The notes beneath the pieces were generated by a model that saw only the letters and a list, made by a program, of their open reading frames with translations, did not search any database and had not been told where the DNA came from. Shown piece after piece: positions 8,895 to 42,178 of a DNA stretch of 51,001 bases. Each line of letters starts with the position of its first letter. Position 1 is the first letter of the stretch. The stretch is taken from positions 1-51,001 of the forward strand of contig NZ_AMRM01000029.1 of the NCBI RefSeq assembly GCF_000300335.1, given 5' to 3'. The DNA is from Nitratireductor pacificus pht-3B (GTDB lineage Bacteria > Pseudomonadota > Alphaproteobacteria > Rhizobiales > Rhizobiaceae). The translations under genes and the position numbers were made by a program.

Positions 8895-8920
8895 ACCTGC
8901 AAAAAACTCTGGGAGGAGCA

Positions 8921-10174
8921 ATGGCACCGCATTTCGATGCGCTGGAAATCCGCGATCCGGCGGAGCGCGAGCGCGAACTCTTCGACCGGTTGCCAGGCTT
9001 TCTGGAGGAAGCCGTCGCCAGGGCCGACGGACTGGCCGAATGGCTCGCCGGCATTGATCTCCAGGCCGTTACCGGCCGTGAAAAGCTGGCCGCCCTGCCG
9101 GTGCTGCGCAAGCCCGACCTGCTGGAGCGCCAGGTGGCGCGCCCACCCTTCGGCGGTTTCGTCAATCCCGATGCGCTGGAGGGCGCGAGGGTGTTCATGT
9201 CGCCGGGACCGATCTGGGAGGTCCAGGGGGCGGGCGCCGATCCTTGGCAGGCGGCACGCGCCTTCTTCGCCGCCGGCGTGCGGCCCGGCGCAAGGGTGCA
9301 CAATGCGTTCTCCTATCACATGACGCCGGGCGGGTTCGTGCTCGATACGGGTGCAAGGGCGCTCGGCTGCACGGTCTTTCCTGCCGGCACGGGCAACACC
9401 GACATGCAGGTCGAGGCGGCAGCGGCGCTGCGGCCGGATGTCTATGCCGGCACGCCGGACTTCCTCAAGGTCATGCTCGACCGGGCAGAGCAGGCGGGCC
9501 GGGACCTGTCGTCCTTCCGGACGGGCCTTGTCTCCGGCGGCGCGCTGTTTCCCTCCCTGCGCGAGGAATACCGGGCGCGCGGCGTCAGGGTGCTCCAGTG
9601 CTATGCGACCGCCGAGTTCGGCGTCATCGCCTACGAGACGGCTGACCGCGACGGCGATCCATTGCCGGGTATGGTGGTCAACGAGAACCTGATCGTCGAG
9701 ATCGTGCGTCCGGGAACCGGGGATCCAGTGCCGGAGGGGGAGGTGGGCGAGCTGGTGGTCACCTGCCTCAACCCGGCCTATCCGCTGGTGCGGCTCGGCA
9801 CCGGGGATCTGTCGGCGGTCCTGCCGGGGCAGAGCCCCTGCGGCCGCACCAACATGCGCATCAAGGGCTGGATGGGACGGGCCGACCAGCGCACCAAGGT
9901 CAAAGGCATGTTCGTCGATCCGAAGCAGATCGCCGAACTGGCGAAGCGCCACGCCGCGATCGACCGGGCGCGGCTGGTGGTGACGCGCGAGGGCGCGGGC
10001 GACGCGATGGCCCTGCATGTGGAGCCGACCGAGGAGGGAACGCTCGATCTGGCCGCGGTGGAAGCCAGCCTGCGCGAGATCACCAAGGTCGGCGGGCGCG
10101 TGCATCTGGCAGCCCCGGGCTCCCTTCCCCGGGACGGCAAGGTGATCGCCGACGAGCGCGACTATTCCGACTAA
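8921..10174 (+). CDS. Phenylacetate-CoA ligase family protein (AMP-binding)
   Basis: The 417-residue protein belongs to the adenylate-forming superfamily, closest to the PaaK branch. It has YATAEFG (adenine/acyl motif A5), RLGTGDLSAV (A7), GRADQRTKVKGMFV (A8) and a C-terminal RDGKVI lysine (A10). The usual Ser/Thr/Gly-rich P-loop (A3) is not present; the corresponding place reads SPGPIWEVQG. The enzyme should activate a carboxylic acid with ATP and CoA, but the substrate cannot be read from sequence. The ATG at 8921 follows GGGAGGAGC. A clear terminator follows the gene, so the TRAP genes are a separate unit, though proximity suggests a shared organic-acid theme. Confidence 0.82.
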   Translation: MAPHFDALEIRDPAERERELFDRLPGFLEEAVARADGLAEWLAGIDLQAVTGREKLAALPVLRKPDLLERQVARPPFGGFVNPDALEGARVFMSPGPIWEVQGAGADPWQAARAFFAAGVRPGARVHNAFSYHMTPGGFVLDTGARALGCTVFPAGTGNTDMQVEAAAALRPDVYAGTPDFLKVMLDRAEQAGRDLSSFRTGLVSGGALFPSLREEYRARGVRVLQCYATAEFGVIAYETADRDGDPLPGMVVNENLIVEIVRPGTGDPVPEGEVGELVVTCLNPAYPLVRLGTGDLSAVLPGQSPCGRTNMRIKGWMGRADQRTKVKGMFVDPKQIAELAKRHAAIDRARLVVTREGAGDAMALHVEPTEEGTLDLAAVEASLREITKVGGRVHLAAPGSLPRDGKVIADERDYSD

Positions 10175-10222: not shown

Positions 10223-10351
10223 TCCGCCCCGTGGCACAGGATGGCGTCCAAAGCTGTGGAGGGCAGGGCCGGGACATGTCGCGCCGCCTGCCCCGACAAC
10301 GACAGCGGCGTCCATCGCGCGGTGGGCGCAACAACCAGAGTGGAGGAGAGC

Positions 10352-11347
10352 ATGAAGTTTCTGATCGGCACCTTATCGGCGCTCGCCCTGTCCGCAATCG
10401 CCACGCAGGCGCAGGCCCAGTGCGATTCCGGCGAAATGGTCATCAAGTTCAGCCACGTGGTGGCGGACAAGGGCCATCCCAAGGGCGATGCCGCGCAGCT
10501 TCTGGCGCAGCGCGTCAACGACGAGATGAACGGCACGGCCTGCATGGAGGTCTACCCGAACTCCACGCTCTATGACGACGACAAGGTCATGGAAGCGCTG
10601 GTGCTGGGCGACGTGCAGCTTGCCGCCCCCTCGCTCGCCAAGTTCGAGGCCTATACGCTGAAATACCGTCTGTTCGACCTGCCCTTCCTGTTCCCGACGC
10701 TGGACGCGGTGAACAATTTCATCACCTCGGACGATGGCAAGGAACTGCTCAAGGCCACCGAGAGCGAAGGCTATACCGGTCTCGGCTTCTGGTCGTCCGG
10801 ACTGAAGCAGTTCTCGGCAGGCAAGCCCCTGCTTGAGCCGCAGGACGCATCCGGCCTGAAATTCCGCGTGCAGACGTCCGACGTCGCCGTGGCGATGATC
10901 GAGGCCATGGGCGCCTCGGCACAGAAGCTGGCCTTCAAGGAAGTCTACGGCGCGCTCCAGACCGGCGTCGTCGACGGACAGGAAAACAGCTGGTGCAACA
11001 TCTACACCCAGAAGTTCTTCGAGGTGCAGGACGGCATCACAGAGACCAACCACCAGCTCCTCGCCTATCTTCTCGTCACCTCGACGGAGTGGCTCGAAGG
11101 GCTCGATCCGGCGGTGCGCGACCAGTTCGTCAAGATCGCCGACGAAGTGACGGCCGCCGCCAATGACGAGGTCGCCAATCAGGAAGCGGCCTGCCGGCAG
11201 AACATCCTTGACGCCAAGGGCACCATTCGCGAGCTGACACCCGAGCAGCGCGCCAAATGGGTCGAGACGATGAAGCCCGTCTGGGCCAAGTTCGAAGGCG
11301 ATATCGGCAAGGACCTGATCGATGCCGCTGTCGCGAGCGGTTCCTGA
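10352..11347 (+). CDS. dctP: TRAP transporter substrate-binding protein, DctP family
   Basis: The 331-residue product has a clear signal peptide ending AQAQ and the DctP fold: FSHVVADKGHPKG at the start, LPFLFPT, then the conserved ligand-carboxylate arginine in GLKFRVQTS, followed by GVVDGQENSW. It binds an organic acid in the periplasm and delivers it to the DctQM permease. Closest family members carry C4-dicarboxylates or similar acids; the ligand here is unknown. Cysteines in the mature N-terminus (QCDSG) and at TACME could form a disulfide. GGAGGAGAG directly before the ATG supports this start over the upstream in-frame codon at 10214. Confidence 0.94.
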   Translation: MKFLIGTLSALALSAIATQAQAQCDSGEMVIKFSHVVADKGHPKGDAAQLLAQRVNDEMNGTACMEVYPNSTLYDDDKVMEALVLGDVQLAAPSLAKFEAYTLKYRLFDLPFLFPTLDAVNNFITSDDGKELLKATESEGYTGLGFWSSGLKQFSAGKPLLEPQDASGLKFRVQTSDVAVAMIEAMGASAQKLAFKEVYGALQTGVVDGQENSWCNIYTQKFFEVQDGITETNHQLLAYLLVTSTEWLEGLDPAVRDQFVKIADEVTAAANDEVANQEAACRQNILDAKGTIRELTPEQRAKWVETMKPVWAKFEGDIGKDLIDAAVASGS

Positions 11348-13810: not shown

Positions 13811-13842
13811 TTAAGTAAACGTTAACGAACTGCCGATAGTAT
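13811..13842 (+). promoter_or_regulatory. CtrA-type box and -10 ahead of a small-RNA candidate
   Basis: 13811-13826 is TTAA-N7-TTAAC, an exact match to the CtrA full site. Eleven bases after the second TTAA lies TAGTAT (13837-13842), a plausible -10. The same spacing occurs upstream of the second flagellin. Start of transcription would be near 13849. Confidence 0.5.
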
Positions 13843-13848
13843 TCACGT

Positions 13849-13921
13849 ATCGAATCGGCTTTTCCTCCTCCCAAGCACGGTTCGTATCGGGGCGGTCCAG
13901 CCATGGCCGCCCCGGCCGTTT
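13849..13921 (+). ncRNA. Candidate small RNA with an anti-Shine-Dalgarno CCUCCUCCC loop
   Basis: In the 275-base gap between dctM and the acetyltransferase gene, 13851-13861 pairs with 13873-13884 (11 bp, one G-U pair, one bulged A). The loop it closes contains CCTCCTCCC at 13864-13872. A second GC-rich hairpin follows (13889-13913: GGGGCGG with CCGCCCC, plus two inner pairs) and then GGCCGTTT. Loop-displayed CCUCCUCCC is the signature of alphaproteobacterial sRNAs known as the alpha-r14 or cuckoo RNA group, which can pair with ribosome-binding sites. Only one such hairpin is seen here, and the U-tail is weak. The call rests on structure and context, not on a model search. Confidence 0.5.
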
Positions 13922-19228: not shown

Positions 19229-19765
19229 TCCCGTCTCATCGTAGGGTTCAAAGTTGGCCTTCGGTCTCTTTTTTTCAAGCGGCACAGAAATTTTCATTGA
19301 TTGTGACAGAGGACGCGCCTATATCCGCGCTGCCCAAAGTCGCACGTGCCTGTGGGTGTCCGCCGGACCTCGAATATGGCGAGGAAACCGGTACGGTACC
19401 TGGACTTAACCGCTCCAGTCGGTCTGACGGCCAACCGCCAAACCGAGGACATCTTGAAGCAACGACGGTGCGGGCCTTTCTGGTGTCTCCCGATTGTCCA
19501 AAAATCGGGATTACTGAAGAGGCACACCTTCATTGCCGGCAGTGCGGTAGGGATCTCCCATACCAAAGCTGAGGCAGACAAAGCGCGTATTCGCCGCAAG
19601 GCGGGAACGCACAGCTGCGCGTCGCCGCATGTCCTGGTTCCGGTGCCTCCACCTGCCGGTCCATCGATGTGCGTCATCGCGCCCTTTGTCCACCGCGGTC
19701 GATCGATTTCCGACCGCAGATTTGAGCTTCAGTGATGCGGCGCGCAGCGCCGCCAATGGAGAGAC
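19229..19765 (+). promoter_or_regulatory. Long leader of the decarboxylase gene, candidate speF-type RNA
   Basis: The 537-base gap between the divergent amidase and decarboxylase genes holds no credible gene. Near the decarboxylase start it forms hairpins: GCGGTCG (19695-19701) with CGACCGC (19711-19717), and GCGGCGC (19737-19743) with GCGCCGC (19747-19753). The second ends 4 bases before the ribosome site. A structured leader (the speF motif) is known upstream of alphaproteobacterial ornithine decarboxylase genes. The match here is by position and gene family only; I could not fit the consensus by eye. The amidase promoter must also lie here. Confidence 0.4.
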
Positions 19766-30784: not shown

Positions 30785-32233
30785 CTATCGCGTCGCCTGC
30801 ATCAGGGTAGACAGCATCTCATCGATCACCGACAGAAGCCGCGCCGAGGCCTGATAGGCATGCTCGAGGTCGAGCAGCAGTGCCATCTCCTCGTCGACGT
30901 TCACGCTGGTCAGGTTTGAAAGCGCCGTCGCCGTGCGGACGGCCAGGGCTTCCTTGCCCTCGGCGCCGCTGTCGGCCTGCTGGCGGTTGCTCTCCAGCCA
31001 GCCAACCGCGTCGAAGGAGAAGGCGGTGACGCTGCGCGTCGTGTCGAGGCCGGCCGCTGCGTCGAACGCCATCGGCTCGTCGAGGCGCTCGGAATAGGTC
31101 CTGAGCAGGTCCGAATAGGAGGCCGCGCCGCTGGCGTTGTGCAGATAGGTGGCGCCGTCGCGCAGGCGCGCTGCGCTGCCGCCGGCCGCCGGATCCATCA
31201 GCGCATTGACGCGGATGCTGCCGGCAAGGCCCGGCTGGAGCGTGCCCGCCGCCGGGACGGCGGGACCGCCCGGCCAGGTGAAGAGGCCCGCCGCATCGGC
31301 AAGAACGCCGTTCGGATCGGATTCGGCGAAGGTCGCGATGAGGCCGCGCGCCACTTCGTCCAGCTGGTTCTGCATCATCAGCGCCGTGTCGTCGCGCAAT
31401 TGCAAATTGGCGGCGATGGAGCCCCTGGCGCTGGTGTTGCCGCCGACACCCGGGACCATCGGAACGCCGTCGATATAAACGGCATTGCCGGTCGTGCCCG
31501 GGCCGTAGGTGTGATGGGGGTTGAAGGTGACCGGGCGCGGCACCGTTTCGAACAGCATCGCGCCATCGCCGGTGACGATGACGAGATCGTTGTCGGACCG
31601 CGTGTTGGTGGAGATCGCCACATATTCGGAGATCTGCTTCAGAAGCGCGTCGCGGCGGTCGAGGGCGTCGGAGACGTCGCGGCCGCTGCGCGTTCCGTTG
31701 ACCACTTCGTTGTTGACCAGCTCGAACTCGCCCAGCAGCCGGTTCAGGTCCTTCACGGCGGCGGATATCTCCGCGTCGGCTTCGGCGCGGAAGGTCTGGA
31801 TCGCCTCGGCACCGCCGTTCAGCGAACGGACGACCTGATGGGCCGCCTGCACGGCGCTTTCGGCCAGCGTCGTGTTCGACGGCGTCGATGCGTAGAGCTG
31901 GAGCGCCGTCTGGAGCTTGCTGATCGCGGTGGCCGGCGCGGTCGCGTTCTCGGCGCCGTTGACCTTCAATTGCAGCGTGTTGAGGCCGCCCGACATGGTC
32001 TGCTGACCCTGCCAGGACGAGATGGCGAACAGGTTCTGGCGGAACAGCACCTCGTTGGCGGCGCGCTTGATCTTGGCGATCCGCGCGCCGGGCAGGGTGC
32101 TTGACAGTTCCGCGCTGCGGCGCGCGTAGTCGGGGTTGGAAGCTTCGGCAACGTTGCGCGATACGACACTGGTCTGGCGCGAGGTGTTGAACAGCGCGGT
32201 CTGCGCGATACTTAGTGCAGATGTCAGTGACAT
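30785..32233 (-). CDS. flgK: Hook-filament junction protein FlgK (HAP1)
   Basis: The 482-residue product has the rod/hook family start (LSIAQTALFNTSRQTSVVSRNVAEASNPDYARR) and the C-terminal SVNVDEEMALLLDLEHAYQASARLLSVIDEML that marks FlgK. SNPDYARR replaces the commoner N-T-x-GY. The central part has the FlgK DRRDALLKQISEYV element. flgE ends 37 bases upstream. Confidence 0.94.
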   Translation of the reverse strand: MSLTSALSIAQTALFNTSRQTSVVSRNVAEASNPDYARRSAELSSTLPGARIAKIKRAANEVLFRQNLFAISSWQGQQTMSGGLNTLQLKVNGAENATAPATAISKLQTALQLYASTPSNTTLAESAVQAAHQVVRSLNGGAEAIQTFRAEADAEISAAVKDLNRLLGEFELVNNEVVNGTRSGRDVSDALDRRDALLKQISEYVAISTNTRSDNDLVIVTGDGAMLFETVPRPVTFNPHHTYGPGTTGNAVYIDGVPMVPGVGGNTSARGSIAANLQLRDDTALMMQNQLDEVARGLIATFAESDPNGVLADAAGLFTWPGGPAVPAAGTLQPGLAGSIRVNALMDPAAGGSAARLRDGATYLHNASGAASYSDLLRTYSERLDEPMAFDAAAGLDTTRSVTAFSFDAVGWLESNRQQADSGAEGKEALAVRTATALSNLTSVNVDEEMALLLDLEHAYQASARLLSVIDEMLSTLMQATR

Positions 32234-33634: not shown

Positions 33635-34309
33635 CTAGACGTCGATCAGCCGGTAGCCGAGATAACGCTTCGAATCGATGGGATCGAAACCGAGCTTCTC
33701 ACGCAGTTTCTTGCGCAGCTTGCTGATGTGGCTCTCGACCACATTCTCTTCGACGTCCTCGTCGAAGATGCCGTAGATGGCATTGAAGATCTGAGTTTTC
33801 GTCACGCGGCGCGTCGGGTTGCCCGCCAGATACTCCAGGATGCGGCGCTCGCGGCGCGGTAGCGGCAGGGGCTGGCCGTCGATCTCGGGGTCGCGGCCGT
33901 CGAAATAGATGCGCATCACGCCGAGCTGCGTGAAGTTGGCCGTGTCCTGCAGGGCGCGGCGGCGGATCGCTGTGATGCGCGCCAGGATCTCGCGGATATG
34001 GACCGGTTTGCGGACGACGTCGTCGGCGCCCCATTCGAACAGGCGCAGCGTGTCGTCGAGCGAGTTGCGCTCGCTGAGCGCGATCAGCGGCGCCGGCGAA
34101 CGGTCGCGGATGCTCTGTGCTGAAAGGCTGCCGGCCTCGCACTGGCCGAGAAGAAAGGCGCTGACGGCCTTCAGTTCGTCTTCGGCGACGGTCTGCACCC
34201 ATTCGCCGAATTCGTTGGGGGCGAAGCCGGCACTGGCCACGCCTTCCCTGTTGAACAGTGAGTGATAACCTTCCGTTACCAGCTCACGCTCGTCAATCAC
34301 CACAATCAC
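33635..34309 (-). CDS. rem: Rem/FtcR-type flagellar transcriptional regulator, atypical receiver
   Basis: The 224-residue product is of the OmpR/PhoB layout. The receiver-like domain (about 1-115) keeps the lysine ([11 protein letters not shown]) but has no aspartate where the phosphoacceptor should be ([14 protein letters not shown]). The C-terminal winged helix is complete ([46 protein letters not shown]). Sinorhizobium Rem and Brucella FtcR share this build and place in the cluster and activate flagellar genes. The start is GTG at 34309 with GGAGGG upstream. The 148 bases before it should hold its promoter. Confidence 0.92.
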
Positions 34310-42134: not shown

Positions 42135-42178
42135 ATGGTTAACCATAAGTAGGCGTTCATGGTTAACAATGGTTTAAC
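42135..42178 (-). promoter_or_regulatory. CtrA-type box and promoter of the second flagellin gene
   Basis: 42163-42177 is an exact TTAA-N7-TTAA. On the minus strand, 11 bases later, lies TACTTA (42151-42146), a plausible -10. A perfect palindrome ATGGTTAACCAT (42135-42146), holding TTAACCAT on both strands, overlaps this -10. Another copy, ATGGTTAACAAT, is at 42159-42170. Transcription would start near 42139, about 60 bases before the start codon. Confidence 0.6.

Follow-up and report, generated by a model that had tools for sequence, protein, structure and literature searches.

What is encoded in the gap that follows dctM in Nitratireductor pacificus pht-3B, and is it placed under the control of CtrA? 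This question was addressed in a stretch of 51,001 nucleotides (contig NZ_AMRM01000029.1, positions 1 to 51,001 of the forward strand; hereafter the window, meaning the whole stretch analysed). The gap between the end of dctM (13769; TIGR00786) and the start of an open reading frame (ORF) for a GNAT acetyltransferase (14045; PF13302) was found to hold a CtrA-type box, a −10 element and a sequence that folds into two hairpins, the first of which carries the anti-Shine-Dalgarno (aSD) motif CCUCCUCCC in its loop. The original prediction, made from the sequence of the window, had proposed that a CtrA-type box is followed directly by the gene for a small RNA that displays CCUCCUCCC in a loop, and both features turned out to be conserved across genera. 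We consider it probable that the locus encodes a one-copy, trans-acting aSD RNA of about 70 nt, which is activated by CtrA and lowers the translation of a set of mRNAs. The elements of the locus are as follows.

13811..13826, plus strand: CtrA-type full box TTAA-N7-TTAAC, an exact TTAAGTAAACGTTAAC, read directly; its 5' base would lie at about −38 from the predicted start
13837..13842, plus strand: −10 element TAGTAT; A 13838 and T 13842 are the two near-invariant bases of the family
13849..13918, plus strand: putative small RNA of about 70 nt, with its start estimated from the −10 element and its end from the terminator-like hairpin
13851..13884, plus strand: hairpin 1, from the fold; 11 bp with one bulged A and CCUCCUCCC in the loop (13862-13872)
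13864..13872, plus strand: aSD motif CCUCCUCCC, read in the window as CCTCCTCCC, in the loop of hairpin 1
13887..13915, plus strand: hairpin 2, from the fold; GC-rich, terminator-like and without the aSD motif

Direct reading bore out the exact TTAA-N7-TTAAC that had been predicted at 13811-13826, and the TAGTAT said to follow it is also present, although at a distance of 10 bases from the box and not 11. Folding of the RNA gave a minimum free energy of −34.7 kcal/mol (z = −3.97), equalled by 1 of 200 shuffled sequences, and agreed with the predicted 11-bp hairpin (arms 13851-13861 and 13873-13884) with its aSD loop at 13864-13872, followed by a GC-rich terminator-like hairpin.

To determine how widely the element occurs, DNA and RNA-model searches were combined. 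A DNA search with 311 bases including the box matched 14 of 60 genomes, namely the genome itself, all nine of its congeners and 4 of the 50 remaining genomes, and the other 13 matches all lay at the small RNA. When the 14 loci were aligned, box, loop and stems were conspicuous against flanks that aligned poorly. A pattern scan of GTDB for box plus loop returned at least 117 loci; 14 were set aside (unrelated organisms by title, with no such RNA on reading), and the 103 kept loci include 37 that were retained on sequence alone. The genera among the matches listed were Mesorhizobium, Nitratireductor, Chelativorans, Aquamicrobium, Aminobacter, Aquibium, Hoeflea and others. Among the same matches, the distance from box to loop was 54-56 in 89 of the 103 kept loci, where the pattern permitted 31 values, TTAA-N7-TTAAC was present in 98 and CCTCCTCCC in 92. 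The search pattern itself accounts for the invariance of CTCCTCCCAAG in the alignment A1, and we do not count this invariance as evidence.

A first covariance model (R1; 39 sequences aligned with MAFFT) held only 3 pairs with misaligned stems and was not used for searching. A second, RNA-only model (R2) was built from 16 sequences with the structure written from folds, and the window RNA, one of these training sequences, scored 74.7 bits with it. In a search of 151 genomes drawn from the bacterial family (109 genera sampled, E 0.001), R2 revealed 70 matches in 63 genomes. At 45 bits or more there were 43 matches in 43 genomes of 33 genera, each with one copy. Among 199 genomes from the order, strong matches were confined to the 4 in the same family, the genome itself included. 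Fifteen genomes of other families in the order gave matches of at most 38 bits, and the exact box was absent from these matches when they were read with 75 bases upstream; one (L254) is a multi-loop aSD RNA, and most others look like mere terminators. Two matches in another family of the order, L246 (38.0 bits) and L249 (31.8 bits), are candidates for one-loop aSD RNAs without a CtrA box.

The loop motif of the 43 matches at 45 bits or more was CCUCCUCCC in 38, CTCCTCCC in 3 and another sequence in 2. The original prediction had been staked partly on conservation of the loop in related genomes, and the loop is indeed conserved there. When 51 matches were aligned by fitting them to R2, which favours the structure, 92.7% of the cells paired and 16 of the 20 pairs showed two-sided changes, compared with 4.3 pairs on average in shuffled controls (0 of 500 as high) and 2-7 in slid versions; one of the 51 rows, a second match of 20.8 bits in L201, is probably spurious. 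In particular, two-sided changes were present in 10 of the 11 modelled pairs of hairpin 1, whose outermost pair was formed in just 25 of 50 rows, and in 6 of the 9 pairs of hairpin 2. A MAFFT alignment of the 16 sequences gave 95.3% pairing and 7 two-sided pairs, as against 1.7 in shuffles. Judged from these alignments, both stems are supported by covariation, as expected of a trans-acting small RNA. We also observed that seven loci (L047, L095, L097 and L100, all from Hoeflea, and L129, L134 and L214) have other stem letters, for example GACATGCC...GGCATG, with a CTCCTCCC loop and the box kept.

The RNA-only model was chosen to avoid searching for the box itself, and the DNA upstream of all 70 matches was then read. 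TTAA-N7-TTAA was present within one mismatch in 43 of the 43 matches at 45 bits or more (36 exact, 7 with one mismatch), always between −37 and −33 relative to the model start. In these upstream regions, the spacings N4-N6 and N8-N12 never occurred and N3 occurred once, and among 5,932 windows drawn at random from these loci none held the box within one mismatch. The nine matches between 34 and 45 bits had an exact box in six and a box with one mismatch in one. None of the 18 matches below 34 bits had a box within one mismatch; nine of these held two or more copies of TCCTCCC and are multi-loop aSD RNAs, three held one and six held none. The multi-loop aSD RNAs serve as an inner control for the box test. 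In the 4.47-Mb genome, TTAAN7TTAAC gave 25 matches against 11 for a reversed-pattern control, and the 25 matches amount to 17 distinct sites because a palindromic site counts on both strands. The box in one genome alone is therefore only about twofold above the control, whereas across relatives it is far beyond chance.

The 43 upstream regions revealed a profile with an A and a T located 27 and 31 positions after the first base of the box, each in 41 of 43. These conserved bases, four positions apart, are as would be expected for the −11 A and the −7 T of a −10 element, and from the position of this element transcription would start near 13849. The consensus of the regions was (C)GTTAA-N7-TTAAC(C), and no −35 hexamer appeared in the profile. 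By its position, the full CtrA site appears to occupy the place of the −35 in the promoter of the small RNA. The window carries, in the −35 region, a full site TTAA-N7-TTAA(C) as defined in the available passages on CtrA regulons (PMC4287350, PMC3616915). In Caulobacter, according to the accessible text of one of these reports, full CtrA motifs are found mostly with their start at the −35 region, where they are associated with activation (PMC4287350). At another locus (L186, minus strand), two overlapping full CtrA-type boxes with starts 11 bases apart were found 5' of the small RNA.

The genome encodes CtrA itself: one protein scored 422.1 bits with NF045991 (cut-off 350), and its best match in the PDB was CtrA (4qpj). 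When the neighbours of the 17 distinct box sites were read, several sites had no close ORF start. Others were found upstream of a flagellin ORF (287 bits when read from the long start, where the model's cut-off is 311), an FtsK-type ORF (PF17854, PF13491), a sigma-70 ORF (PF03979, PF04546) and a GGDEF/EAL ORF. In Sinorhizobium meliloti, flaA, ftsK and rpoD carry CtrA motifs, as far as the available passages of that study report (PMC3616915). The window also holds a second exact TTAA-N7-TTAAC at 42163-42178, less than about 100 bases upstream of a minus-strand flagellin ORF (15 bases from its longest start), and this is likely a CtrA site of the flagellar cluster. Additionally, the window holds at 33647-33877 on the minus strand a winged-helix ORF of 93 residues that lacks a receiver domain and matches just the DNA-binding regions of response regulators, all below cut-off. 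We take it to resemble a flagellar regulator of the FtcR or Rem type.

These data bear on whether CtrA acts at the box as an activator. The aSD-loop RNA could be real and TTAA-N7-TTAA could be read by another factor, or CtrA could repress there. CtrA binding is deduced from the motif, the box covers the place of the −35, where a repressor could also act, and the genome has other winged-helix regulators (12 matches to the Trans_reg_C profile). However, the motif is the known full CtrA site with its N7 spacing and stands, elsewhere in this genome, before genes of the kinds expected under CtrA, and both the association with activation in Caulobacter and the lack of a −35 hexamer argue against repression, so we judge this alternative unlikely. 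Activation by CtrA is preferred, and most likely phosphorylated CtrA would switch on the RNA at a late stage of the cell cycle, as it does for flagellin among other genes.

We also asked whether the region could instead serve the downstream gene as a leader or attenuator, or just terminate the upstream gene. In the window, dctM upstream and the GNAT acetyltransferase ORF downstream are both on the same strand as the RNA, which would suit such a role. Because greedy ORF calling also took antisense ORFs, the comparison was confined to the loci named here, which revealed other neighbours: a DUF533 ORF and a short-chain dehydrogenase in L115, and an ABC ATPase with a TOBE domain and an aminotransferase in L064. 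In four loci (L059, L064, L097 and L129), the downstream ORF, of an aminotransferase cluster, lies on the opposite strand. Because the neighbours change between genera and the downstream ORF can be on the other strand, the RNA is not a leader, and the element is therefore a free-standing gene. The promoter, moreover, sits between the upstream gene and the RNA, and we regard a leader or terminator role as very improbable.

The original prediction had also placed the RNA among the alpha-r14 (cuckoo) RNAs, and this assignment was rejected. In a 351-base search with loose thresholds, the alpha-r14 model (RF02344) gave 32.4 bits (E 0.00017) at the window RNA, where the gathering score is 58.8; the covariance-model hit that the prediction had looked for came from the purpose-built R2 and not from Rfam. 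Alpha-r14 RNAs have three hairpins, each with a CCUCCUCCC loop, and a sigma70 promoter CTTAGAC-N17-CTATAT, as given in the available text of the NfeR1 report (PMC10746234). In contrast, the window RNA has one aSD hairpin, a second hairpin without the motif and a CtrA box. It is a cuckoo RNA only in the loose sense that CCUCCUCCC is unpaired in a hairpin loop. Four true alpha-r14 copies (65.5 to 90 bits) are located elsewhere in the genome; three of them (L001-L003) stand in tandem on contig 32 at 2195-2646, following the end of an ORF that, on reading, resembles a DUF1127-type protein.

The window RNA might nevertheless be an alpha-r14 member that lost two hairpins, with the motif shared by descent. 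The identical loop motif and the weak alignment at 32.4 bits speak for this, although much of that score probably comes from the shared loop letters. Against it stand the score under gathering, the single aSD hairpin in place of three and the different promoter. Both kinds of RNA, moreover, coexist in this genome and in two others (G068 and G102), whose multi-loop matches (L228 and L229) lack the box. No intermediate combining two or three aSD loops with a CtrA box was found among the 52 matches of at least 34 bits; more than one nearby TCCTCCC occurred in three of these, L173 and L192, where the second copy lies past the terminator, and L211, which has no box. Such descent therefore seems to us quite unlikely, and the window RNA is, by its sequence relationships, better described as one copy of a separate, so far unnamed small-RNA family. 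Consistent with this, Rfam 15 at gathering thresholds gave two matches in the window, neither at the small RNA, and in 14 further loci searched whole its single gathering-level match was ar45, not at the small RNA. Families of the suhB type did not match the window RNA up to E 10. The two Rfam matches in the window are an ar45 RNA (19332-19479, 167.4 bits) and a speF leader (19488-19640, 83.7 bits), end to end on the plus strand.

Upon comparison with characterized RNAs, we found similarities of principle along with clear differences. The window RNA shares with alpha-r14, NfeR1 and the cuckoo RNAs CCUCCUCCC in a hairpin loop and an expected pairing at translation starts. NfeR1, as described in the accessible passages, is 123 nt long with three aSD hairpins, has a sigma70 −35/−10 promoter, is controlled by LsrB and NtrC and exists in several copies, whereas the window RNA is about 70 nt long with one aSD hairpin and a terminator, has a CtrA box replacing the −35 and belongs to a family with one copy per genome at 45 bits or more, compared with several for alpha-r14. 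According to the same source, NfeR1 silences ntrB by pairing at its translation start through the same loop motif (PMC10746234). CtrA-dependent non-coding RNAs are already known in Caulobacter: CcnA of Caulobacter crescentus, in the part of that report available, has a C-rich loop that pairs with G-rich 5' regions (PMC8959179). However, CcnA, likened here by description alone, is 182 nt long, is located at the replication origin, has a CCCC loop and targets ctrA and gcrA. EcpR1 and GspR of S. meliloti are likewise trans-acting, cell-cycle-tied RNAs of related bacteria, and the available passages have them acting on dnaA, gcrA or ctrA via other loops (that of EcpR1 being UCCGCCGCAUCU); those passages describe no CtrA-driven promoter for either RNA. 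Identity with EcpR1 or GspR, considered for the shared cell-cycle theme, was rejected on loop sequence and locus. MmgR/AbcR RNAs (alpha-r8, alpha-r15) are alphaproteobacterial RNAs with aSD-type motifs, but they have three stem loops and are Hfq-dependent or Hfq-binding, as the excerpts consulted state (PMC7143759).

Which mRNAs might the exposed loop reach? Hairpin 1 would expose CCUCCUCCC, hairpin 2 would end transcription, and the loop would pair with strong ribosome sites of the GGGAGGAGG type. The ribosome sites of dctP and of the CoA-ligase gene had been named as possible targets, and both are possible, with strong pairing that is a prediction only.

8911..8918, plus strand: candidate target site GGGAGGAG before an AMP-binding (CoA-ligase-like; PF00501) ORF that starts at 8921; predicted duplex −18.1 kcal/mol
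10342..10349, plus strand: candidate target site GGAGGAGA before the dctP ORF (PF03480, DctP) that starts at 10352; predicted duplex −14.0 kcal/mol

Among 515 ATG positions in the window with at least 90 open codons, nested starts being counted apart, the AMP-binding ORF ranked 2nd and dctP 4th in predicted pairing; the strongest site was at 32233 on the minus strand (−19.1 kcal/mol). The loop-complementary pattern GGGAGGAGG-N4-10-ATG occurred 11 times in the genome, compared with 2 for the reversed pattern. The 10 genomes of the genus gave 3-15 matches each against 0-3, including one genome with 3 against 3; some of these matches are not gene starts, as several ORFs were shorter than 65 codons. 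We found GGGAGGAGGCGGGATG before a propionate--CoA ligase-like gene in 7 of the 10 genomes, and a close form in 2 more. The proteins read behind such sites were propionate--CoA ligase-like at five loci, the small subunit of a sodium/substrate symporter at three and aldehyde dehydrogenase at three; two longer proteins were cut at 300 residues for the family search and scored below cut-offs. The predicted duplexes of five such sites ranged from −20 to −26 kcal/mol. Pairing with the ctrA leader (at best −15.1 kcal/mol in 330 nt) was set aside as weaker than the best ribosome sites. The predicted outcome of pairing is lowered translation of a set of mRNAs, many of which would be metabolic or transport-related.

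Several observations weigh against a CtrA-driven aSD RNA of this kind. R2 found no match in 88 of the 151 genomes of the family, and 2 of the 9 matches between 34 and 45 bits lack the box. In the genus of the window the terminator is followed by a weak U tract (here GTTT), while TTTTT is found in many relatives. The architecture of one aSD loop plus terminator is not tied to CtrA by itself, because L207 (42.1 bits) and L222, L227 and L230 (27-30 bits), all from the same family, are box-less aSD-like RNAs with this architecture; they possibly form a further class. Any CCUCCUCCC loop, including those of the four alpha-r14 copies, would fit the predicted target sites as well. In the accessible part of a published list of 40 small-RNA candidates from Mesorhizobium huakuii 7653R (PMC5596092), none could be identified with the window RNA. 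The nearest by size, MH_s36, was dropped as a published transcript of this family on its map position, judged from one genome: in the complete genome G291, whose RNA gene and box are like those of Mesorhizobium, 1.33 Mb separate the RNA from the guanidine-II RNA, as against 55 kb for MH_s36 in M. huakuii. Finally, the 43 of 43 matches with a box are not fully independent, because the training sequences of R2 were first picked with the box. This dependence is eased by the matches less similar to the training set: the box was present within one mismatch in 18 of 18 matches below 85% identity to any training sequence (12 exact) and in 11 of 11 below 80% (6 exact).

The conservation of the RNA behind a CtrA site in dozens of genera suggests that it is switched on with the cell cycle. 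Known aSD RNAs, NfeR1 among them, respond to stress and nitrogen, and cell-cycle regulation in alphaproteobacteria centres on CtrA. No description of a CtrA-controlled aSD RNA was found in the titles, abstracts and passages of the open-licence literature, where co-mentions of "cuckoo RNA" and "CtrA" came from unrelated passages. The family itself combines a clear promoter with a single copy per genome, and no Rfam 15 match exceeds the cut-off. A broader proposal, which we put forward only tentatively, is a mask of ribosome sites clocked by the cell cycle: in 33 of the 109 Rhizobiaceae (GTDB) genera sampled, CtrA itself would transcribe a one-loop aSD RNA that lowers translation of the GGGAGGAGG class, for example the mRNAs of propionate--CoA ligase and of the sodium/substrate symporter small subunit. 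Whereas EcpR1 and GspR of S. meliloti have cell-cycle genes as their targets, control here would run outwards from CtrA. If this holds, each pass of CtrA activity would join the cell cycle and nutrient use at the level of translation, and in many rhizobia and related bacteria the CtrA regulon would have a translational arm.
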